A stretch of 64,000 nt of DNA, from NCBI GenBank assembly GCA_902794095.1, contig CADBFZ010000004.1, positions 1 through 64,000 on the forward strand. The letters are read 5' to 3'. Of the stretch, positions 37,009 through 49,669 are shown piece after piece. The position numbers were made by a program, and so were the translations under genes. The number at the start of each line of letters is the position of its first letter. Position 1 is the stretch's first letter. Under the pieces are notes generated by a model. That model was not told the origin of the DNA. It searched no databases and saw only the letters and a list, made by a program, of their open reading frames with translations. The DNA comes from an uncultured Lachnospiraceae bacterium (GTDB taxonomy: Bacteria > Bacillota > Clostridia > Lachnospirales > Lachnospiraceae).

Positions 37009-37851
37009 TTACTCAACACATATGAACAGATACTTAAAATACGTATGGTTTCTAGCGTCATCGTAGAGATTGATGAGGCTTATGGAATAAAGATCCGAAA
37101 GTGCTTTTAAATTATTCTTATTTATTAAGGAAAGCATTTTTCGATATGTCTTCTCGATATCCGGCGCGTTGTTGTCCTGATAGCACAGAACAGCTTTGCT
37201 TCCGGGGAGAGGAAATGTTCCTATATTATCAGCCGGAAGAAATGAAAGGCTGATGAGTTTGTTGTATACGTATTTGCCTTCCGTAAGATCGTTATAGTCG
37301 ATGGTAACTCCTGCAGGAAACATGGGGAGTGAATCGTCACGGGAGGTTTTGGTAATGTGCGCGGCTATATCCGCTGCAATGTCGCCTGCGTGGAATGAGG
37401 AATCCTTGTCACTGATCGGACTTGAGAAAACACTCATGGGAGGCATTACATCAATAAAGGGAACGCCGGGTTTATGTGAGTTGTATTTTCCGAGGATCCA
37501 CATGCCGAGCTGAAGCGCCGAGATCTTCTTGGTAATAAGAAATGCTTCATGCTGCATTTCCCTGATCTTGGTGTTGGCAAGTTCTTCGATTCCGTCTCTT
37601 GAAAGGTTGTGGATGATCTTACCGATCTCGGCTATGGAGCAGCCTGTCTGTCTGAGGGTCGTGATAAAAAAGAACGATCCGATCTGTGCAGATGAGTAAT
37701 AGTGATATCCGTTCTTGGGATTCGTCCATGGAACGAGGATATTTTGCTCGTAATAGTATCTGAGTGTATCTCTTGTTGTGTTACAAAGAGCTGCGAACTC
37801 GGAAACCTGGAGCGTATATTCACTGTTTTCGTTAGAAATAATCTGAGCCAT
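37009..37851 (-). CDS. MerR-family regulator with GyrI-like effector domain
   Basis: A 280-aa transcription factor. The N-terminal winged helix reads YTLQVSEFAALCNTTRDTLRYYYEQNIL, then NGYHYYSSAQIGSFFFITTLRQTGCSIAEIGKII, the MerR pattern. A dimer helix (about 85-125) leads to a C-terminal domain of about 150 residues resembling the GyrI-like small-molecule-binding fold of BmrR-type proteins. ATG 37851 was chosen because AAAAGG lies about 8 nt upstream; the longer reading to 37992 would translate through the merR promoter and a palindrome. It is divergent from the fatty-acid operon, whose promoter has the 19-bp spacer and internal dyad typical of MerR targets. Control of fatty-acid synthesis is therefore a strong inference. 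Confidence 0.87.
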   Translation of the reverse strand: MAQIISNENSEYTLQVSEFAALCNTTRDTLRYYYEQNILVPWTNPKNGYHYYSSAQIGSFFFITTLRQTGCSIAEIGKIIHNLSRDGIEELANTKIREMQHEAFLITKKISALQLGMWILGKYNSHKPGVPFIDVMPPMSVFSSPISDKDSSFHAGDIAADIAAHITKTSRDDSLPMFPAGVTIDYNDLTEGKYVYNKLISLSFLPADNIGTFPLPGSKAVLCYQDNNAPDIEKTYRKMLSLINKNNLKALSDLYSISLINLYDDARNHTYFKYLFICVE

Positions 37852-37897
37852 AAAGAAACCTTTTAGTACATGTGTAACATTCGTTACAACTATCGCT

Positions 37898-37955
37898 ATT
37901 GTAAATGATATCCGACTGAAAAGCAAAAGAAACCTTGGGGTTAACCCCAAGGTTT
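37898..37955 (-). promoter_or_regulatory. merR promoter with upstream 26-bp palindrome
   Basis: On the minus strand TTGCTT (37926-37921), 17 bp, TACAAT (37903-37898). Immediately upstream lies a perfect 26-bp palindrome (37930-37955), arms AAACCTTGGGG around TTAA. It shares the TTGGGG...CCCCA half-sites with the dyad in the fab promoter. The palindrome plus T5 could also act as a plus-strand terminator, though no gene reads into it. Confidence 0.65.
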
Positions 37956-38036
37956 TTGATACTATTGTCTTTCTTTTGCAGGGAAATGGCATTAAATCAG
38001 ATAAAAACCGTGAGAAAAAGGGAGATTTTTTGATTG

Positions 38037-38067
38037 TTGACTTGGGGCTAAGCCCCAGGCATATCCT
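38037..38067 (+). promoter_or_regulatory. Fatty-acid operon promoter with MerR-type 19-bp spacer
   Basis: The -35 TTGACT (38037-38042) and -10 TATCCT (38062-38067) are separated by 19 bp that contain the dyad TGGGGC-TAA-GCCCCA (38043-38057). Overlong spacers filled by a dyad are the hallmark of promoters activated by MerR proteins through DNA untwisting. A 17-bp reading with CATATC as -10 is possible but has a poorer hexamer. The start is expected near 38074. Confidence 0.7.
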
Positions 38068-38130: not shown

Positions 38131-38352
38131 ATGAAAGACGTTACCGAAACAATTATCCGTGTGATTGCAGCATATCTTGACAAGGATGCTTCCGAGATCA
38201 AGGCAACAGATACCTTCGCTGAGATCGGACTTGATTCACTGGACATCATGGAGCTTGTAATGCAGCTTCAGGAAGAACTTGACTGCAAGATCGAGCTTTC
38301 CCAGGATATCACTTCCATTGAAAAGCTTGCAGAGTATATCAGCCAGCAGTGA
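38131..38352 (+). CDS. acpP: Acyl carrier protein
   Basis: A 73-aa acidic carrier of growing acyl chains. Ser36 in EIGLDSLDIMEL is the phosphopantetheine attachment site, and the four-helix ACP pattern is complete. It is the first gene of the fatty-acid operon, with an AAAGGAG site before the ATG, and the fabK ribosome site lies 6 nt after its stop. Position at the head of a fab operon supports a role in fatty-acid rather than polyketide synthesis. Confidence 0.96.
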   Translation: MKDVTETIIRVIAAYLDKDASEIKATDTFAEIGLDSLDIMELVMQLQEELDCKIELSQDITSIEKLAEYISQQ

Positions 38353-38369: not shown

Positions 38370-39299
38370 ATGGACAAGAATCCGATATGCGAAATGCTGG
38401 GTATCAAATATCCCGTAATTCAGGGAGGTATGGCCTGGATCGCGGATGCATATCTGGCTGCGGCTGTTTCGGAAGCCGGCGGACTCGGACTTATCGCGGC
38501 AATGAATTCAAACGGAGAGCAGCTTCGTGAGCAGATAGTTAAAGCCAAAGAACTTACGGACAAGGTGTTCGGAGTAAATCTGATGCTCATGAGTCCGTTC
38601 ATAGATGAAGCAGTTGATGTAGTCTGCAGTGAACATATCAAGGTTGTTACAACCGGAGCGGGCAATCCTGCCAAGTATATGGAGAAACTTAAAACTGCCG
38701 GCGTAACCCTAATCTGCGTTGTGGCAAGCGTTGCTCTGGCAAAGATGGTCGAGGACATGGGTGCAAGTGCGGTTATCGCAGAAGGATGTGAATCCGGCGG
38801 ACACGTAGGCGAGACAACAACCATGGCACTTGTTCCTCAGGTGGCAGATGCGGTTAATATCCCTGTTATTGCTGCGGGTGGTATTGCTGACGGAAGAGGA
38901 ATGGCTGCTGCATTTATGCTGGGAGCCTGCGCAGTTCAGATGGGAACAAGATTCCTTACCGCCAAAGAATGCAGAGTTCATGAGAACTATAAAGAGAAAG
39001 TTTTATCTGCCCGTGACCGTGACACTATCGTAACAGGTAAAACTCTGGGACATCCCGTTCGTGCTCTTAAGAACAGAATGACCAGAGAGTTTAATAAGAT
39101 GGAACAGGATCCTTCAACAAAGCCCGAAGATCTGGAAGCAATGGGAGCAGGCGCTCTCCGAAAAGCAGCGATTGATGGTGATGTCAAAAACGGATCCTGC
39201 ATGTGCGGACAGATAGCGGGCCTTGTTAACAGCGAAGGAACCTGCGAAGAAATAATAACCGGAATCTGCAGTGATGCTTTTTCACTGCTTGGGTATTGA
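38370..39299 (+). CDS. fabK: Enoyl-ACP reductase II (flavoprotein)
   Basis: A 309-aa FMN-dependent reductase that performs the last step of each elongation cycle in place of FabI. It shows YPVIQGGMAWIADAYLAAAVSEAGGLG at the N terminus, GCESGGHVGETTT near 140, and VIAAGGIADGRGMAAAFMLGACAVQMGTRFL, the nitronate monooxygenase/FabK fold with its phosphate-binding loop. ATG 38370 is chosen because AAAGGAG lies 7 nt upstream; earlier in-frame GTG and ATG codons overlap acpP and lack a site. FabK enzymes are generally insensitive to triclosan. Its stop overlaps the fabD start. Confidence 0.94.
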   Translation: MDKNPICEMLGIKYPVIQGGMAWIADAYLAAAVSEAGGLGLIAAMNSNGEQLREQIVKAKELTDKVFGVNLMLMSPFIDEAVDVVCSEHIKVVTTGAGNPAKYMEKLKTAGVTLICVVASVALAKMVEDMGASAVIAEGCESGGHVGETTTMALVPQVADAVNIPVIAAGGIADGRGMAAAFMLGACAVQMGTRFLTAKECRVHENYKEKVLSARDRDTIVTGKTLGHPVRALKNRMTREFNKMEQDPSTKPEDLEAMGAGALRKAAIDGDVKNGSCMCGQIAGLVNSEGTCEEIITGICSDAFSLLGY

Positions 39300-40225
39300 T
39301 GATGGGAAAGATAGCATTTTTGCTGGCAGGTCAGGGAAGCCAGTATCCCGGAATGGGAAAAGAATTATATGAGGATGTGGCCGAGGTCAAATCTTTTTTT
39401 GATGAAGCGGAAAAGAGCCGTCCCGGAACTCTTAAGCAGATGTTTGAGGGAAGCGAAGAGGAACTTAAGCAGACTATAAACACCCAGCCTTGCTTGTTCC
39501 TTACGGATATGGCTGCTGCCATTGCACTTGAAGCGAAAGGGATTCATCCCGATTTTGCGGCAGGCTTTTCGCTTGGAGAAATTGCAGGTCTTGCGGTAAG
39601 CGGAGTGCTTAATAAAGAAGATGCATTCAGACTTGTTACCGTAAGAGGAAAACTGATGCATGAAGCATCCGGCGTGGTAAAGGGCAAGATGGCTGCGGTT
39701 CTTCGTATGGATGCGGAGGAACTTAAAAAGCTTTCCGACGAATTCGGAGTATGCCCCGTTAATTACAATTGCCCCGGTCAGATCGTGGTATCCGGAAGTG
39801 AAGAGAAAATGGATTCCTTCTTATCGGAACTTGATACAAGGAAAGTGAGATACGTAAATCTCCCCGTAAGCGGCGCGTTCCATACCCCTTACATGGCATC
39901 TGCTTCTGAAGGTCTGAGAAGAGAACTGACAGAAGGCGGATATGAAATCAGTTCACCGAAAATTACTCTTTACTCCAATCTGAGTGCAAAGCCTTATCCT
40001 ATGGATTCGGAAGGCATCATAAGTGCAGTATCCGGTCAGGTATCGAGCAGTGTCAGATGGGAAGAGATAATTAAAAATATGGCGGAGAGCGGCGCAGATA
40101 CTTTTATTGAATGCGGTCCGGGAAATACTTTGTCGGGATTTGTTAAAAGAACGCTCAAGGATGTCAGAATCTTGAATGTAGCAGGCAGAGAGAGTTTAAA
40201 GCGTACCTTGGAGGAACTTAAATAA
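39299..40225 (+). CDS. fabD: Malonyl-CoA:ACP transacylase
   Basis: A 308-aa enzyme loading malonyl groups onto ACP. GQGSQYPGMG opens the protein. The nucleophile is Ser91 in GFSLGEIAGL (the usual GHSxGE with His replaced by Phe), and the catalytic His is in SGAFHTPYM near 198. Two ATGs (39299 and 39302) are possible; the first overlaps the fabK stop as TGATG, suggesting reinitiation, since no good ribosome site is visible. The stop overlaps the fabG start by one base. Confidence 0.95.
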   Translation: MMGKIAFLLAGQGSQYPGMGKELYEDVAEVKSFFDEAEKSRPGTLKQMFEGSEEELKQTINTQPCLFLTDMAAAIALEAKGIHPDFAAGFSLGEIAGLAVSGVLNKEDAFRLVTVRGKLMHEASGVVKGKMAAVLRMDAEELKKLSDEFGVCPVNYNCPGQIVVSGSEEKMDSFLSELDTRKVRYVNLPVSGAFHTPYMASASEGLRRELTEGGYEISSPKITLYSNLSAKPYPMDSEGIISAVSGQVSSSVRWEEIIKNMAESGADTFIECGPGNTLSGFVKRTLKDVRILNVAGRESLKRTLEELK

Positions 40226-40965
40226 TGCTATCCGATAAGATTGCGGTTATTACAGGCGGAACAAGAGGAATAGGCAAGGCTATTGCATTAAAGTTTGCAC
40301 AAAACGGTGCGGACGTTGCAATCATAGCAACTTCGGAATCCGATGCTGCGAGAAAAACTCTGGCTGAATTAAAAAGCCTGGGAAGTGATGCAAAGCTCTA
40401 TGTATGTAACGTCAGTAATTCCGAAGAAGTAGAAAGAATGTCCGAGATGATCATAGCAGATTACGGACAGATAGATATTCTTGTAAACAATGCGGGGATT
40501 ACAAGGGACAACATCCTTCCTGCTCTAAAAGATTCCGATATCGATGATGTAATAGATGTAAACCTTAAAGGATGCATGTATGTAACAAGAGCGTTTATCA
40601 AAAACTTCGTTAAACGCCGCAGCGGAAACATTATCAACATCAGTTCTGTTGTAGGACTTATGGGTAATAAAGGCCAGGCCAATTATGCTGCATCAAAAGC
40701 AGGCATCATAGGATTTACCAAAACCGTAGCAAGGGAATACGGAAAGAGAAACATAAGATGCAATGCAATAGCTCCGGGTTATATACAAACGGAGATGACA
40801 TCGGCACTTAATGAAGATATGACAAAAGCCATTGCAGAGTCCCTCCCTTTAGGAACTCTCGGCGAACCGGATGATGTTGCAAATCTCGCTCTTTTCCTTG
40901 CGGGATCTTCATCCAAGTACATAACCGGTGAGGTGATCAAAGTAGACGGAGGAATGTATGTGTAG
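40225..40965 (+). CDS. fabG: 3-oxoacyl-ACP reductase
   Basis: A 246-aa NADPH-dependent short-chain reductase. It has the cofactor loop TGGTRGIGKAIA, NNAGITRDN near 87, the catalytic Ser in INISSVVGLMGN, and Tyr and Lys in YAASKAG. The C terminus ITGEVIKVDGGMYV is typical of FabG. It overlaps its neighbours on both sides (TAATG upstream, 8 nt into fabF), confirming the polycistronic unit. Confidence 0.96.
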   Translation: MLSDKIAVITGGTRGIGKAIALKFAQNGADVAIIATSESDAARKTLAELKSLGSDAKLYVCNVSNSEEVERMSEMIIADYGQIDILVNNAGITRDNILPALKDSDIDDVIDVNLKGCMYVTRAFIKNFVKRRSGNIINISSVVGLMGNKGQANYAASKAGIIGFTKTVAREYGKRNIRCNAIAPGYIQTEMTSALNEDMTKAIAESLPLGTLGEPDDVANLALFLAGSSSKYITGEVIKVDGGMYV

Positions 40966-42190
40966 AGTTGTTGTAACCGGAATGGGAGTTATTACGCCTG
41001 TTGGAAATGATATTGATAATTTTTGGAATAATATTACAAAAGGTGTTCTCGGAATAGACCGTATAAAGAGGTTTGATGCATCGAATTTAAAAGTAAATCT
41101 TGATGCCGAGGTAAAAGATTTCGAACCGAAGGATTATTACGATACCGTTCAGGAGATAAGAAAATCTGATCTGTATATGCAGTACGCAATGGCTGCTGCA
41201 AAACAGGCGGTAGAAAGCAGCGGAATCCTTGACAGCGATCTTGATAAGGAACGCCTTGGCGTTTATATAGGATCCGGAATAGGTGGAATTAATTCTACGT
41301 TAAGAGAGACCAGAAAACTTGATGATAAAGGACCTGAGATGGTATCACCGTTCTTTGTTCCCATGATGATAAGCAACATGGCAACAGGTGCGGTATCAAT
41401 CAAATTCGGAGCAAAAGGTCCAAGCCTTCCAGTTGTAACCGCATGTGCTACATCAACTCATACCATAGGCGAAGCATACAGAAGTATCAAGCACGGATAT
41501 GCTGATGCAATCATTGCAGGCGGAAGTGAAGCTTCGATTAACGAACTTGCGATGGCAGGATTTATAAATTGTCAGGCACTTAACTTGTCCGATAATCCCG
41601 AAGAGGGAAGTCTTCCTTTCGATAAGAGAAGGGGCGGATTCGTAATGGGTGAGGGTGCAGGAATACTTTTGCTTGAAGAATATGAACACGCAGTTAAAAG
41701 GGGAGCGCCGATCTATGCCGAAGTGGTGGGATATGCCAACACCTCCGATGCGTATCACATCACCGCTCCCGATCCTGAAGGAGACGGTGCAGTAAGAGCG
41801 ATTAAATCAGTTGTGGCTGAAGCAGGAATATCAGCAGATGATGAGATCTATGTCAATGCACACGGAACAGGAACTCATCTTAACGATGCCATGGAGACCA
41901 AAGCTCTTAAGAAAGTTTTCGGTGAGAAAGCATACGACCTTCATGTAAGCTCCACAAAGTCCATGACGGGACACATGATGGGTGCAACCGGTGCGGTTGA
42001 AGCTGTGGCATCCGTTCTTGCTCTTAAGAACGGAATTATTCCTCCCACCATTAATTATAAAGAGAAGGATGAGGAATGTGATCTTGACTACACTCCGAAC
42101 AAAGCGGTTAAGGCTGACATTAAATATGCCATAAGCAATTCGCTTGGCTTTGGCGGACACAATGCGGTTGTGGCATTTAAGAGGATCTGA
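40958..42190 (+). CDS. fabF: 3-oxoacyl-ACP synthase II
   Basis: A 410-aa condensing enzyme. The catalytic triad is visible: Cys163 in VVTACATSTHTIG, His in NAHGTGTHLNDAMET near 303 and His in STKSMTGHMMGATGA near 338. The gatekeeper loop SNSLGFGGHNAVVAF closes the protein. Start ATG 40958 overlaps the fabG stop with GGAGGAATGT just before it. No fabH gene accompanies it here, so chain initiation must depend on a fabH located elsewhere or on another route. Confidence 0.96.
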   Translation: MCRVVVTGMGVITPVGNDIDNFWNNITKGVLGIDRIKRFDASNLKVNLDAEVKDFEPKDYYDTVQEIRKSDLYMQYAMAAAKQAVESSGILDSDLDKERLGVYIGSGIGGINSTLRETRKLDDKGPEMVSPFFVPMMISNMATGAVSIKFGAKGPSLPVVTACATSTHTIGEAYRSIKHGYADAIIAGGSEASINELAMAGFINCQALNLSDNPEEGSLPFDKRRGGFVMGEGAGILLLEEYEHAVKRGAPIYAEVVGYANTSDAYHITAPDPEGDGAVRAIKSVVAEAGISADDEIYVNAHGTGTHLNDAMETKALKKVFGEKAYDLHVSSTKSMTGHMMGATGAVEAVASVLALKNGIIPPTINYKEKDEECDLDYTPNKAVKADIKYAISNSLGFGGHNAVVAFKRI

Positions 42191-42191
42191 T

Positions 42192-42605
42192 ATGGGTTCA
42201 ATACAGGAATATGCAAATATATTTGAAAAACTTGATCTGTCAGAATTGAGTGTTGAAGAGGAAGGACTGAAGCTGACTCTCAAAAGGGAAAGACAGATTC
42301 AGGCGGGAAACACGCAGCCGGTTACATTTACCGGAAATGCTCAGCAGATAGTAACACAGAACTTCGAAGCTCCTGTGGAAGCAATCGGAACAGAGATCAA
42401 AGCTCCTCTTCTCGGAGTCTTCTATGCAAATGAAGTTCCGGTTAAAGAGGGCGATGAAGTTAAAAAGGGTGATGTCCTTTGCTCCATAGAAGCAATGAAA
42501 ATGATGAATGAAGTAAGGTCATCTGCAGACGGTAAGGTTCTTAAGATACTTGCGGAAAACGGTGCTCTTGTGGAATATCATCAGACACTTTTTGTTATCG
42601 GATAA
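42192..42605 (+). CDS. accB: Biotin carboxyl carrier protein of acetyl-CoA carboxylase
   Basis: A 137-aa carrier. An N-terminal helix region (GSIQEYANIFEKLDLSELSVE) and a linker precede the biotinyl domain (about 66-137) with the biotin Lys103 in SIEAMKMMNEV. The typical thumb segment (PLLGVFYA...VPVKEGDEVKKGD) is present. ATG 42192 follows AGAGGA and lies 1 nt after the fabF stop region; a longer reading would overlap fabF by 47 nt without a ribosome site. Confidence 0.94.
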   Translation: MGSIQEYANIFEKLDLSELSVEEEGLKLTLKRERQIQAGNTQPVTFTGNAQQIVTQNFEAPVEAIGTEIKAPLLGVFYANEVPVKEGDEVKKGDVLCSIEAMKMMNEVRSSADGKVLKILAENGALVEYHQTLFVIG

Positions 42606-42614
42606 GGTCGGGTT

Positions 42615-43049
42615 ATGAACAGAGAAGAGATCAAAGAGATACTTCCACACAGAGAGCCCATGCTTCTTGTGGATGAAGTCGAATTAAATGAAGACGGAAC
42701 GGCAACGGGATATTACAACGTTCGCGGGGATGAGTATTTTCTCCGGGGACATTTTCCCGGTAATCCCATCGTGCCCGGAGTTATCCAGTGCGAGATGATG
42801 GCGCAGTCTGCTTGTATTCTTTTTAAGGACAAAATGAATTCGGGAAATGCTCTTCCTGTTTACACGGGACTTGATAAGGTCAGGTTCAGAAAACAGATTG
42901 TTCCCGGTGACAGGATAAGGATAGATGTTAAGATCATCCGAGGATGTCATCCGTTGTATCAGCTTAGTGGTGAGGTGTCTGTCGACGGGAAGAAGTGCAT
43001 GAGCGGAGAGTTTTCTTTTGCAATAATAGATAAGAAGAAAGGAGAGTAG
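42615..43049 (+). CDS. fabZ: 3-hydroxyacyl-ACP dehydratase
   Basis: A 144-aa hot-dog-fold dehydratase. ILPHREPMLLVDEV opens the domain. Catalytic His46 lies in LRGHFPGNPIVPGV and Glu60 in QCEMMAQ. Length and motifs fit FabZ rather than FabA. The site before its ATG is weak (AAGGTCGGG), so coupling to accB translation is likely. Confidence 0.95.
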   Translation: MNREEIKEILPHREPMLLVDEVELNEDGTATGYYNVRGDEYFLRGHFPGNPIVPGVIQCEMMAQSACILFKDKMNSGNALPVYTGLDKVRFRKQIVPGDRIRIDVKIIRGCHPLYQLSGEVSVDGKKCMSGEFSFAIIDKKKGE

Positions 43050-43050
43050 C

Positions 43051-44379
43051 ATGTTTTCCAGAATTCTCATTGCCAACAGAGGCGAAGTTGCAGTCAGGGT
43101 TATCAGGGCTTGCAAGGAAATGGGAATAGAGACCGTTGCGGTTTATTCCGAGGCGGACAGGGATGCTCTTCATGAAGAAATGGCAGACATGTCATATTGC
43201 ATCGGAGGTCCCCTGGTTAAAGACAGCTATTTGAATATCGACGCTCTGATTACTGTTGCTAAAAGGACGGGTACCGAGGCGGTTCATCCGGGATACGGAA
43301 TGCTTTCGGAAAATCCTGAGTTTGCAAAAAGGTGCGAAGAAAACGGGATAGTATTTATCGGTCCGAGTTCAGGCGTTATGGAGAAGATGGGTCAGAAAGA
43401 GGTCGCAAGAAGCATCGCGGTTAAATGCGGCGTGCCCGTTGTTCCCGGAACCGAGATATTAAAAGATGCAAAGGAAGCTTCCGAGAAAGCCGAGGAGATC
43501 GGATATCCCGTAATACTCAAAGCAAGAGCGGGCGGAGGAGGTAAGGGTATCCGTGTTATAAGAAAGCCTGAGGATATCGCTGATGAGTTTTCACAGGTTG
43601 CAAAGGAAGCACTTAATTCATTCGGCGATGACGGCATATTCATGGAAAAGTTTCTCGAGCATGTTAAGCATGTGGAGGTTCAGATACTTGCGGACGCATC
43701 CGGAAATGTCCTGATACTCGGTGACAGGGATTGCAGCGTACAGAGAAGAAATCAGAAACTTATCGAGGAATGTCCCGCACCCGTATTAAACGAAAAGACC
43801 AGGGAGAAGATGTATGAAGCTGCTAAGAACCTTGCCTTAGAAGCCGGATACGTAACTGTCGGAACCGTGGAGTTTCTCGTAAAGGGTGATGAGTTTTATT
43901 TTATGGAAATGAATACGAGACTTCAGGTTGAGCATTCCGTAACCGAACCTGTTTGCGGAATCGATATCGTGGAGTGGCAGATAAGAACCGCTGCGGGAAT
44001 TACGATTCCATTTTCCCAGTCTGATATCGGAAGTAGCAGACATGCGATCGAGTGCAGAATATGTGCTGAGAATTCCAAGGACTTTACACCTGCTGTCGGT
44101 AAGGTTGAGATGCTTCACATTCCCGGCGGGATGGATGTCAGATTTGATTCTGCGCTTTATCAGAATTGTGAGATCACTCCCTTTTATGATTCCATGCTGG
44201 GAAAACTTATTGTATGCGCAGATACAAGGGACGGCGCAATTCGTAAGATGAAGAGTGCATTATCCGAGTTCGTGCTTGTGGGTGTTGATAATAACAGGGA
44301 AATACATATGAAGTTTCTGGAAGACGGAAAGTTCATCATCGGAAACTATGATGTGGATATATGTGAAAAGGTTCTGTGA
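43051..44379 (+). CDS. accC: Biotin carboxylase subunit of acetyl-CoA carboxylase
   Basis: A 442-aa ATP-grasp enzyme that carboxylates biotin on AccB. It opens ILIANRGEVAVRVIRACKEMGIETVAVYSEADRDALH. The ATP-binding Gly-rich loop is ILKARAGGGGKGIRVI. It also has VEVQILADASGNVLILGDRDCSVQRRNQK, then EMNTRLQVEHSVTE with the catalytic Glu and Arg. AAAGGAGAG precedes the ATG and overlaps the end of fabZ. Length is normal. Confidence 0.96.
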   Translation: MFSRILIANRGEVAVRVIRACKEMGIETVAVYSEADRDALHEEMADMSYCIGGPLVKDSYLNIDALITVAKRTGTEAVHPGYGMLSENPEFAKRCEENGIVFIGPSSGVMEKMGQKEVARSIAVKCGVPVVPGTEILKDAKEASEKAEEIGYPVILKARAGGGGKGIRVIRKPEDIADEFSQVAKEALNSFGDDGIFMEKFLEHVKHVEVQILADASGNVLILGDRDCSVQRRNQKLIEECPAPVLNEKTREKMYEAAKNLALEAGYVTVGTVEFLVKGDEFYFMEMNTRLQVEHSVTEPVCGIDIVEWQIRTAAGITIPFSQSDIGSSRHAIECRICAENSKDFTPAVGKVEMLHIPGGMDVRFDSALYQNCEITPFYDSMLGKLIVCADTRDGAIRKMKSALSEFVLVGVDNNREIHMKFLEDGKFIIGNYDVDICEKVL

Positions 44380-44381
44380 GA

Positions 44382-45215
44382 ATGGAATTAAAGAGACTAT
44401 TCCTAAAGGCTAACAATGAATTGGAAAATTCGGGGCAGGGCGGAAAGGACAGAAAAGTCACCTGCAGAAAATGCCAGAAGAAAAATACCGTTACAAAGAT
44501 CCGAAACAATAATTTCGTCTGTCCCGACTGCGGACATTATTTCCAAGTCAGGGCAAGACGCCGAATACTGATGCTGACTGACAGGCGAAGTTTCATCGAG
44601 ATGAACCGTGAGATGCAGTCGGTCAATGTACTGGGATTTCCGGAATATGATGACAAGCTTCGCGGTGCGATGGATAAGAGCAGGGAAAACGAAGCTGTCA
44701 TATGCGGTGAAGCAGAGATCGACGGCCATAAGATATGTATCTTTTCCATGGACTCAAACTTCATGATGGGATCCATGGGCGCAGTGGTCGGCGAGAAGAT
44801 CGCTTCTTTATTCGAATATGCAACTCTTCGTAATCTGCCCGTTCTGGGCATTACCGTGTCCGGAGGGGCGAGAATGCAGGAGGGAATGATATCCCTTATG
44901 CAGATGTCCAAGGTCTCCGCTGCGGTAAAGAGACATTCCAATTCAGGAAATCTTTATATCACGCTTCTTACAAATCCTACAACCGGAGGAGTGGATGCAA
45001 GCTTTGCCATGCTGGGTGACATTACCCTGGCAGAGCCCGGAGCAAGGATAGGATTTGCAGGGCCAAGAGTTATAGAAAAAAGTCTCAACAGATCTCTTCC
45101 CAAGGACTTCCAGAAAGCAGAGAGAGTTTTGGAATGCGGATTTATAGATGCGATAGTAACAAGAGCGGATCAGAAAAGTTATATAGCAAGGCTTCTTAAG
45201 ATACATGGAATGTAA
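44382..45215 (+). CDS. accD: Acetyl-CoA carboxylase carboxyltransferase beta subunit
   Basis: A 277-aa subunit. The N-terminal zinc finger is visible as CRKC and CPDC near 26-47 with normal spacing, followed by the crotonase-like core: SGGARMQEGMISLMQMSKVSAAV and TTGGVDASFAMLGDI. It acts with AccA to transfer carboxyl from biotin to acetyl-CoA. The ATG at 44382 was preferred to a GTG at 44376 that lies inside the accC end; spacing is tight and the call between them is not certain. Confidence 0.94.
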   Translation: MELKRLFLKANNELENSGQGGKDRKVTCRKCQKKNTVTKIRNNNFVCPDCGHYFQVRARRRILMLTDRRSFIEMNREMQSVNVLGFPEYDDKLRGAMDKSRENEAVICGEAEIDGHKICIFSMDSNFMMGSMGAVVGEKIASLFEYATLRNLPVLGITVSGGARMQEGMISLMQMSKVSAAVKRHSNSGNLYITLLTNPTTGGVDASFAMLGDITLAEPGARIGFAGPRVIEKSLNRSLPKDFQKAERVLECGFIDAIVTRADQKSYIARLLKIHGM

Positions 45216-45234: not shown

Positions 45235-46023
45235 GTGTTTAAGAATACAGTTAACGTTGGTGATGATTACGGAATCGTAATCGAAGCAAGGTCCGATAAG
45301 AGACTTACCGCTACGGATTATATTAATTCGCTTATAAATGATTTTACCGAGTTTCATGGCGACAGATTATTCGGTGACGATAAGGCTGTGGTGGCAGGCG
45401 TCGGATTCTTAGGGAAGATGCCGATAACGGTCATAGGCATTGAAAAAGGTAAGACCACGGAAAGCAGAATACTTCATAACTTCGGAAGCGCACATCCGGA
45501 AGGATACAGAAAGGCACTTCGCCTTATGAAACAGGCAGAGAAGTTTAAACGTCCCGTCCTGTGCCTTGTTGATACCGCAGGTGCCTTTTGCGGAATCGAC
45601 GCGGAAGAAAGAGGGCAGGGAAGAGCAATCGCAGAGAATCTGTTTGAAATGTCCGATCTTAAAACACCCATAATCTCGGTTGTGATAGGAGAAGGCGGAA
45701 GTGGCGGGGCGCTTGCACTTTGCCACTCGGACAGGATATGGATGCTTGAGGATGCGTATTTCAGCGTCGTCTCTCCCGAAAGCTGCGCCAATATATTATG
45801 GAAAGATCCCGGAAGAGCTGCTGAGGTTGCAGGGGCTCTTAACCTTACAGCGGATAAGCTGTATAAACTCGGGCTCATAGATAAGATCTGCAGGAAAAAC
45901 AAGATGAAGGAACTTGAGGATGATCTTAAGAAGGAATTTGAAATCCTGCGTGATGTGAGGACAGATGAACTGATAGAAGCAAGATATCAGAAATTCAGAA
46001 AGATGGGATACAGATCTTATTAA
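45235..46023 (+). CDS. accA: Acetyl-CoA carboxylase carboxyltransferase alpha subunit
   Basis: A 262-aa subunit, slightly short at the N terminus compared with enterobacterial AccA (about 319), as is usual in Clostridia. It shows ARSDKRLTATDYINSL, FTEFHGDRLFGDD, LVDTAGAFCGIDAEERGQGRAIAENL and VIGEGGSGGALAL with the CoA-binding glycines. The start is a GTG at 45235 preceded by GGAGGA with 4 nt spacing; no ATG fits. It forms the carboxyltransferase heterotetramer with AccD. Confidence 0.94.
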   Translation: MFKNTVNVGDDYGIVIEARSDKRLTATDYINSLINDFTEFHGDRLFGDDKAVVAGVGFLGKMPITVIGIEKGKTTESRILHNFGSAHPEGYRKALRLMKQAEKFKRPVLCLVDTAGAFCGIDAEERGQGRAIAENLFEMSDLKTPIISVVIGEGGSGGALALCHSDRIWMLEDAYFSVVSPESCANILWKDPGRAAEVAGALNLTADKLYKLGLIDKICRKNKMKELEDDLKKEFEILRDVRTDELIEARYQKFRKMGYRSY

Positions 46024-47747: not shown

Positions 47748-49517
47748 TTACTCAACATCCTGTAATGCGTCGAAATCTTCTTCTCCTGTTCTGACCTTAA
47801 CAACCTTTTGTACGTTGTAAACGAAGATCTTACCGTCTCCGATATGACCGGTGTAGAGAGCCTTCTTGGCAGTCTCGATAACCTTGTCTACGGGAATAGC
47901 GCTTACAACAACTTCAAGCTTAACCTTGGGAAGGAGCGTAGCGTCGATCTCGACTCCACGATATCTCTCGCCTGCACCCTTCTGAATTCCACAACCCATT
48001 ACCTGGGTTACGGTCATACCGGTTACACCGAGCTTGTTCATAGCCTTGCGGAGTGTATCGTAGCGTGAAAGTTTTGCGATAATAACAACTTTGTGAATTC
48101 CGGTTTCCATTTCGGGGATAAGAGTATCGGGCTCTTTGATAACGGGAACCGCTGCGTTCTTTTTAGCTTCGGAAGCTTCTTCATAAGAATCGGATCCGAG
48201 GTTGGTGTTTTCGTTGACGTCCATGGTCATGCCGGTTGTATCCATGATGGAGAAGCCTGCATATGCTGAAGGAAGACCATGCTCCTTAACATCAAGACCC
48301 TGAATTTCTTCTTCTTCGCTAACACGAAGACCGATTGTCTTCTTAATAACAGTAAATGCGATAAGGATGGTTACTACAGTCCATGCTATGGTTACGAACA
48401 TACCGCCAAGCTGTTTTCCGAGCTGTGCGAATCCGCCGCCATAGAAGAGACCTTCGGTGATTTCTGCTCCGGCAAATCCGGGAGCGGTCTCGGTTGCGAA
48501 GAGACCTACCGCGATGGTACCCCAGATACCGTTGAGCATATGAACCGCAACAGCACCTACGGGATCATCTACATGAGTTACGTTATCGTTGAACCATACG
48601 CCGAATACTACGAGAAGTCCTGCAACAACACCGATGATAGCTGCGCCTGCGCAATCGGTTACGTCACAAGGAGCGGTGATTGCTACTAGACCTGCAAGTG
48701 AAGCGTTGAGACACATCGAGACATCGGGCTTACCGTACTTAACCCAAGTGAAAATCATACATACAACAGTTGCAACTGCGGGAGCTACAGTGGTGGTAAG
48801 GAAGATGGATCCGAGAGTGGGAAGATCGGTTGCTGCCGCACCGTTGAATCCGTACCAGCCGAGCCAAAGGATAAATACACCGAGGGCTGCGATTACAAGG
48901 TTATGTCCGGGGAATGCATTTACTTTGGTAACTTTACCGCTCTTATCTCTTTCGAACTTGCCGATTCTGGGCCCGAGCATCCATGCACCGATGAATGCGC
49001 AGATACCGCCGACCATGTGAATGCAGTTGGAACCTGCGTAATCGTGGAATCCCCACTGTGCGAGGAATCCGCCGCCCCATGTCCAATGAGCTTCGATGGG
49101 GTAGATGATCGCACTGATCACTGCGGAGTAGATACAATAGCTTGAGAACTTTGTTCTTTCTGCCATGGATCCTGAAACGATGGTTGCGGTTGTTGCACAG
49201 AATACAAGGTTGAATACGAATGCGGAATAATCAAAATTTCCGTAACTTGTGAATACGTCGAAGCTGAAGCCTCCTGCGAATCCGTTAAGGATGTTATCTC
49301 CGAGCATCAGTGATGCACCGCAGATGAACCACATTACGGTTCCTATACAGAAGTCCATCAGGTTCTTCATTATAATGTTGCCTGCGTTCTTGGCTCTTGT
49401 GAATCCGGCCTCACACATTGCAAATCCGGCCTGCATCCAGAAAACCAGTGCGGCGCCGATCAAAAACCATACGCCGTACACTTCGTCTGTGACGTAACTT
49501 ATTATTTCTTGTGCCAT
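47748..49517 (-). CDS. amt: Ammonium transporter fused to a PII domain
   Basis: A 589-aa membrane protein. Residues 1-400 form an 11-helix Amt channel with FWMQAGFAMCEAGFTRAKN, the WTWGGGFLAQWGFHDYAGSNCIHMVGG region and the pore His in VAVHMLNGIWG. A linker (about 405-475) joins a complete PII domain (HKVVIIAKLSRYDTLRKAMNKLG, YRGVEIDATLLPKVKLEVVV, HIGDGKIFVYNV). The T-loop keeps YRG, but the position of the uridylylated Tyr51 of E. coli GlnB is Ile, so control must be by ATP/ADP/2-oxoglutarate binding alone. ATG 49517 has an AGGAGG site 8 nt away; a longer reading starts without one. Built-in PII allows direct gating of the pore. Confidence 0.94.
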   Translation of the reverse strand: MAQEIISYVTDEVYGVWFLIGAALVFWMQAGFAMCEAGFTRAKNAGNIIMKNLMDFCIGTVMWFICGASLMLGDNILNGFAGGFSFDVFTSYGNFDYSAFVFNLVFCATTATIVSGSMAERTKFSSYCIYSAVISAIIYPIEAHWTWGGGFLAQWGFHDYAGSNCIHMVGGICAFIGAWMLGPRIGKFERDKSGKVTKVNAFPGHNLVIAALGVFILWLGWYGFNGAAATDLPTLGSIFLTTTVAPAVATVVCMIFTWVKYGKPDVSMCLNASLAGLVAITAPCDVTDCAGAAIIGVVAGLLVVFGVWFNDNVTHVDDPVGAVAVHMLNGIWGTIAVGLFATETAPGFAGAEITEGLFYGGGFAQLGKQLGGMFVTIAWTVVTILIAFTVIKKTIGLRVSEEEEIQGLDVKEHGLPSAYAGFSIMDTTGMTMDVNENTNLGSDSYEEASEAKKNAAVPVIKEPDTLIPEMETGIHKVVIIAKLSRYDTLRKAMNKLGVTGMTVTQVMGCGIQKGAGERYRGVEIDATLLPKVKLEVVVSAIPVDKVIETAKKALYTGHIGDGKIFVYNVQKVVKVRTGEEDFDALQDVE

Positions 49518-49523
49518 AATCTT

Positions 49524-49669
49524 TCCTCCTCTGATTACAAAGGGATGCATTCCGGCCGAAAATACGTACCTTTGTATGAACGATTTTTACCTACGGCATT
49601 TTTGAAAATAAAAAAGGCGTCACAGAAAGAAATCTGTGACGCCATTGCCATCAAATGTAAAAATCTTAT
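49524..49669 (-). promoter_or_regulatory. amt leader with early intrinsic terminator
   Basis: Starting about 26 nt after the predicted start site, a perfect 11-bp hairpin (GGCGTCACAGA/TCTGTGACGCC, 49616-49643) is followed on the minus strand by TTTTTTATTTT. A second stem TACAAAGG/CCTTTGTA (about 49536-49576) with an inner CCGG-rich loop lies just before the AGGAGG site. A terminator between promoter and gene implies attenuation. A nitrogen-responsive antiterminator (ANTAR type) is possible but its loop signature was not found. A 38-codon reading frame running through the hairpin exists without a ribosome site. Confidence 0.6.

Follow-up and report, generated by a model that had tools for sequence, protein, structure and literature searches.

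A fatty-acid synthesis operon with a probable MerR-type promoter, facing a divergent BmrR-like regulator in Lachnospiraceae

MerR proteins are known mostly as sensors of stress, metals and drugs, and the mode in which they act through the promoter spacer is best known from resistance genes. BmrR, acting at the bmr promoter of Bacillus subtilis, has a drug pump as its target and contacts cationic drugs through an acidic residue, Glu253; EcmrR of E. coli is a multidrug-type regulator. The fatty-acid synthesis (fab) genes of Firmicutes are targets of FabT (MarR family) and of FapR, a repressor; these regulators share with the MerR protein described here the kind of genes controlled and likely the physiological question, but belong to other protein families and have palindromes of their own. 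RNA polymerase works badly on 19-bp spacers; MerR proteins attach to the spacer and, in their active form, kink it such that the -35 and -10 elements are aligned (extracts of PMC7722741 and PMC9909328); 28 proven MerR-family promoters surveyed in the former extract have spacers of only 19 or 20 bp. For another MerR protein, Rv1828 of Mycobacterium tuberculosis, a review table (extract of PMC9909328) gives fatty acids as the ligand and the target as unknown. Among the matches listed for the titles and abstract openings of the open-licence literature, none describes control of a fab operon by a MerR protein, a weak sign of novelty; in the extract of a FabK paper (PMC11091888) the sole MerR match is an author's name. 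The mode of control would be classical for MerR, and what is perhaps new is the fatty-acid operon as target.

The window (the whole stretch of DNA analyzed, 64,000 nucleotides from an uncultured Lachnospiraceae bacterium) holds a merR gene (37009..37851, minus strand) divergent from a plus-strand fab operon of the order acpP-fabK-fabD-fabG-fabF-accB-fabZ-accCDA. Its first gene, acpP (38131..38352; PP-binding, E 6.1e-14), is followed by fabK, of the enoyl-ACP reductase type (38370..39299; PF03060 (NMO), E 1.1e-73; the name also leans on the position after acpP), the malonyl transacylase gene fabD (39299..40225; PF00698, E 3.3e-42), fabG (40225..40965; PF13561, E 6.8e-67), fabF (40958..42190; PF00109, E 1.9e-55), the biotin carrier gene accB (42192..42605; PF00364, E 4.5e-21) and fabZ (42615..43049; PF07977, E 3e-23), with the start codons of fabK and accB placed by eye. 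The genes accC (43051-44379), accD (44376-45215) and accA (45235-46023), also on the plus strand, were named by eye from their ORF translations, and a Pfam match places an AMP-binding ligase at the operon's end.

The encoded MerR/BmrR-type regulator (280 aa) is laid out as a winged helix–turn–helix (HTH; residues ~13–82), a coiled coil (85–125) and a GyrI-like domain (~127–280). The N-terminal winged HTH of the MerR family is recognized over the cut-off by PF13411 (E 1.9e-10), as it is in 22/22 aligned orthologues; the C-terminal GyrI-like (BmrR effector) domain is present too, although the Pfam search with the window's MerR itself did not reach it, and a full-length BmrR fold is predicted. 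EcmrR, solved in a promoter open complex (title of PDB entry 6xl5), is the best PDB sequence match (E 1.4e-16, N-terminal part), and its target differs from the fab operon. Identity with BmrR is ~15%, and the hallmarks of a BmrR-type multidrug sensor are missing: Glu253 aligns with Ser256, a position occupied by Ser or Ile throughout the 22 aligned orthologues, and the adjacent target is a biosynthetic operon in place of a drug efflux pump.

Within the 279-bp merR–acpP intergenic region lie two related dyads, one of which is part of the fab promoter. The -35 (TTGACT, 38037..38042) and -10 (TATCCT, 38062..38067) elements on the plus strand flank a 19-bp spacer (38043-38061, read from the sequence) occupied by a putative MerR-type operator, the odd-type dyad TGGGGC-TAA-GCCCCA (38043..38057; TGGGGCT-A-AGCCCCA in full-arm form), so that the promoter reads TTGACT-TGGGGCTAAGCCCCAGGCA-TATCCT. 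The sequence-only reading had claimed this arrangement, and the coordinates confirm it. A standard promoter scan (16–18 bp spacers) found nothing here, as expected for a spacer of 19 bp. Taken alone, the dyad is within chance (odd dyads with arms of at least 7 arise in 170 of 5000 dinucleotide shuffles of the intergenic region), and its case is therefore one of conservation.

We gathered MerR orthologues by protein from overlapping genome sets, giving 39 loci; since several genomes appear twice, we count 33 distinct upstream sequences. All 33 contain TTGAC-NN-GGG-N7-CCC-N5-TATNNT, that is, a dyad within a spacer that is always exactly 19 bp, in keeping with the MerR-family rule of an operator dyad in a 19–20 bp spacer. 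The dyad search across relatives that keep the MerR, which the sequence-only reading had called for, is thus positive throughout and supports its view of this promoter as a MerR target. A column count over 28 rows (26 distinct, five pattern-fetched rows included) shows TTGAC, GGG, CCC and TAT--T to be invariant and the spacer to be 19 bp in all 26 distinct rows, while the acpP start lies anywhere from 62 to 151 bp beyond the -35; most positions outside the motif drift, with an A-rich run favored ahead of the -35 and G favored 12 bp after the -10 start. MerR and site occur together in 39/39 loci, including those in which the acpP-facing MerR is just 33–49% identical, and sequence motifs identify acpP and fabK downstream in 38/39 (the exception being L007).

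Distribution of the regulator follows that of the site. At E<1e-30 MerR is found in 6/150 family genomes, the window's included (G000, G116, G009, G068, G078 and G102, the sole matches at this threshold); the promoter pattern is present in all six and in 0 of the other 144. One orthologue, L037, is that of a cultured strain, Butyrivibrio hungatei DSM 14810. The protein also occurs on 13 named genome contigs (Butyrivibrio hungatei and others), in 11/31 genus genomes and, at E<1e-100, in 18/392 order genomes. Searching 397 family genomes with the 31-letter pattern gave 11 matches in 11 genomes (reversed control, 0), every one of which adjoins a MerR of this group. The protein search had already turned up six of them; since the first loci, from which we derived the pattern, include these six, their fit is in part built in. 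Four of the other five (L101, L103, L104 and L105) show the merR-acpP-fabK arrangement and the fifth (L107) an alcohol-dehydrogenase arrangement; being fetched by pattern, these five match by construction and were left out of the 39/33 count. In genus g103 (L007, L107; a single operator in each genome) the gene opposite a 30%-identical MerR is not acpP but an iron-containing alcohol dehydrogenase (the L007 neighbor identified through its near-identical counterpart in L107), such that the operator marks the regulator and not the fatty-acid pathway itself. Genus g207 is otherwise rich in the MerR, but its genome G580 (99% complete) yields none at E<=1e-22. There are also 15 distant MerR matches (E 1e-22 to 1e-28; 12 with loci, L141–L152); the two that we read, L141 and L148, both adjoin an ABC-exporter-like ORF, assigned by eye, L148 having TTGACTCTGTGCTTACCACATACTTTATTAT and L141 being without such a promoter. 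With up to 3 mismatches allowed, the full promoter pattern has one site in the window's own genome (80% complete); this search found no wider MerR regulon there, and the regulator looks dedicated to a single operon.

Relatives without the regulator are built differently. In G151, G167 and G168, of the same genus, FabK is 60% identical and no such MerR is present; all three promoters read TTGACA-17-TATAA, followed by two TTTGA-N-TCAAA dyads, which we take to resemble the FabT box, and have no 19-bp promoter. This FabT-like dyad occurs in 3/3 MerR-negative loci versus 1/33 distinct MerR-positive regions, as one dyad (scanned in 330-nt upstream stretches whose first bases are within merR and which in some loci end short of acpP); none lies before acpP in the window's region. 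Regulator and promoter type thus change together, in what would be a natural replacement of regulators within one genus. A further relative, G165 (83% complete), has no MerR match; its FabK, 86% identical to that of the window, is a fragment at a contig end and uninformative about the promoter. In 16/31 genus genomes there is no FabK match at E<=1e-60. A search for FapR as a possible co-regulator gave nothing over the cut-off in 11 genomes (7 MerR-positive, the window's own 80% complete) and sub-threshold matches in G150 and G151.

We consider it very likely that the fab operon has a MerR-type promoter of which the divergent BmrR-like MerR is the dedicated regulator. A MerR dimer would occupy the spacer-filling GGGG/CCCC dyad; RNA polymerase would use the promoter poorly without ligand-bound MerR, the 19-bp spacer being 2 bp too long, and the unliganded protein would repress the operon. 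Ligand-bound MerR would kink and shorten the spacer DNA, licensing fab transcription, with the GyrI-like domain probably reading a fatty-acid demand or lipid-state signal rather than a cationic drug. The parts that such a distortion mechanism needs are present at this locus; that the fab operon is activated in this way is our inference.

The second dyad of the intergenic region is a perfect 26-bp palindrome (AAACCTTGGGGTTAACCCCAAGGTTT, 37930..37955; no mismatch, core CCTTGGGG-TTAA-CCCCAAGG) beside a predicted minus-strand merR promoter (-10 TACAAT, 37898..37903; -35 TTGCTT, 37921..37926; 17 bp apart). By itself it is beyond chance, given that even palindromes of at least 26 bp arise in 0/5000 dinucleotide shuffles of the 279-bp region (longest 22). 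The sequence-only reading had taken it for a sister of the fab dyad: it is indeed perfect, ends 3 bp from the merR -35 (6 bp when measured from its CCTTGGGG core) and is 84% like the fab dyad over 19 nt, but the spacing classes differ (GGGG-N5-CCCC, odd, at fab; GGGG-N4-CCCC, even, on the merR side). Between the merR -10 and start codon there is also a small dyad, TGTAAC-ATTC-GTTACA (37873-37888).

From sequence, the palindrome is probably a second MerR operator that arose when the merR–fab region lengthened. The region from merR to the fab -35 is short in 23/39 loci, where one site can serve both genes and the single dyad near merR probably controls merR too; in the window's clade the palindrome by the merR promoter would have taken over autoregulation. 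It is found with at most one mismatch in 11/39 loci, and the remaining loci have none within four mismatches. Within the genus, CCTTGGGG-N4-CCCCAAGG occurs in 9/31 genomes, at one place per genome and always in this intergenic region, all nine being MerR-positive. Longer regions without the window-type palindrome are those of L006, L007, L044, L136 and L137 and the pattern-found L105 and L107; L137 has a weaker GGGG-N7-CCCC second dyad.

An intrinsic terminator or insulator hairpin, with no role as MerR operator, is the main rival explanation for the palindrome, as a plus-strand T-run follows it in 10/10 loci shown (a C interrupts that of L032); the hairpin is strong (-17.4 kcal/mol in the window) and scores as terminator-like on the minus strand. 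Yet the palindrome lies between divergent promoters, a place in which a terminator is of no use to either gene, and its stem is invariant in 10 loci bar one uncompensated L032 base while the loop varies. The even spacing unlike that of the fab dyad would fit a terminator, as set against a CTTGGGG/CCCCA core in common with the fab operator and a distribution that tracks the regulator (exact in 9/11 MerR-positive genus genomes, with one mismatch in the tenth, G163 = L032, and none in G170; 0/20 without MerR). No second dyad is found in the long intergenic regions of five loci (L006, L007, L044, L107 and L136), by which a second operator is dispensable; against this, L105, from another long-region lineage, has a different second dyad of the odd fab type, TTGGGGG-TGT-CCCCCAA, between merR and the fab promoter and near merR. 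In L003, L036, L050, L051 and L052 half of the palindrome doubles as the merR -35 (TTGGGG, 17 bp, read by eye), and the window and L032–L035 have the separate merR promoter TTGCTT-17-TAMAAT just past it. We judge the terminator reading unlikely.

The palindrome stands 103–104 bp from the fab -35 in the window and L032–L035 and 106–108 bp in L003, L036, L050, L051 and L052, a range held (window 37933-38037 and nine related loci, although of few independent lineages) despite diverged intervening sequence (38–63% ungapped identity in 6/7 equal-length pairs; L003/L050, 95%) and varying flanks (merR-HTH to palindrome, 95–186 bp; -35 to acpP, 62–94 bp, or 70–94 bp with the inner ATG of L033 as start codon). 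Phase-locked looping between the dyads is not supported by these unequal distances, the two classes being ~1/3 turn apart and the second dyad of L105 lying ~178 bp away. We also rejected the palindrome as a rightward MerR-type promoter, since the nearest -10-like hexamer is 17 bp from its center, compared with 11–12 bp at the fab promoter.

A different challenge concerns the direction of control: MerR might only repress fab, in a FabT-like logic released or weakened by ligand and involving no activation by distortion. FabT, a known Firmicute regulator of fab genes, is a repressor (extract of PMC9083066), and the near-consensus -35 (TTGACC/TTGACT) makes basal firing of the fab promoter possible; however, a pure repressor needs no exact 19-bp spacer, and this length is invariant in 33/33 distinct loci against 17 bp in the three MerR-less relatives, which leaves pure repression decidedly improbable.

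Near-identical sites elsewhere in the genus bear on which protein reads the dyad. Three genomes without this MerR (G154, G157 and G174) contain twelve TTGAC[CT]TGGGGGTWRCCCCC sites (L069, L070, L076, L079, L082, L083, L085, L086, L088, L089, L091 and L092). A hexamer resembling a -10 follows each at 19 bp (ten of TAT type, two TTTAAT), and at six of the twelve loci a c-di-GMP-I riboswitch lies downstream. The sole alignment-matching MerR per genome adjoins one site in G157 (33% identical over 72 residues) and G174 and in G154 is encoded on a different contig; probably a small regulon, riboswitch leaders included, is governed here by a second MerR whose operator is almost identical. The fab site might in principle be read by a different MerR too, but that another regulator reads it and the divergent MerR controls something else is highly improbable, given its presence beside the site at every locus, distant acpP-facing homologues included, and the single MerR in the window's genome that matches the alignment (E<=1e-4). 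Matches of the TTGACAGGGGGAC type in G160 and G169 were kept apart as another, repetitive element; in these genomes (L071, L074, L080, L081 and others) TTGACAGGGGGACWGTCCCC palindromes recur, in part as pairs facing each other, and are possibly a mobile or repeat element.

Returning to the divergent MerR as dedicated fab regulator, one MerR appears to have been recruited to a core, probably essential pathway in a bacterial group to which rumen Butyrivibrio belongs. We tentatively go further, at somewhat less than even confidence, and suggest that a BmrR-derived MerR, its drug-binding glutamate lost, responds to a metabolite of the lipid pathway and acts as obligatory activator of the FAS-II operon, with a second operator where the region lengthened. 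Fatty-acid synthesis in Butyrivibrio-type bacteria might then be switched on rather than simply de-repressed, the reverse of FapR/FabT logic, a proposal that we put forward with some doubt; similarly speculative is the element of this reading that sets a second operator beside merR at a near-constant 103–108 bp in the window's clade. Were MerR an obligatory activator, fab expression would depend on ligand, cells would require MerR to grow unless fatty acids were supplied, and the ligand could be found with purified protein and one 31-bp promoter. Elsewhere in the window (47748-49550), an ammonium transporter and a P-II domain are fused in one frame (PF00909, PF00543).
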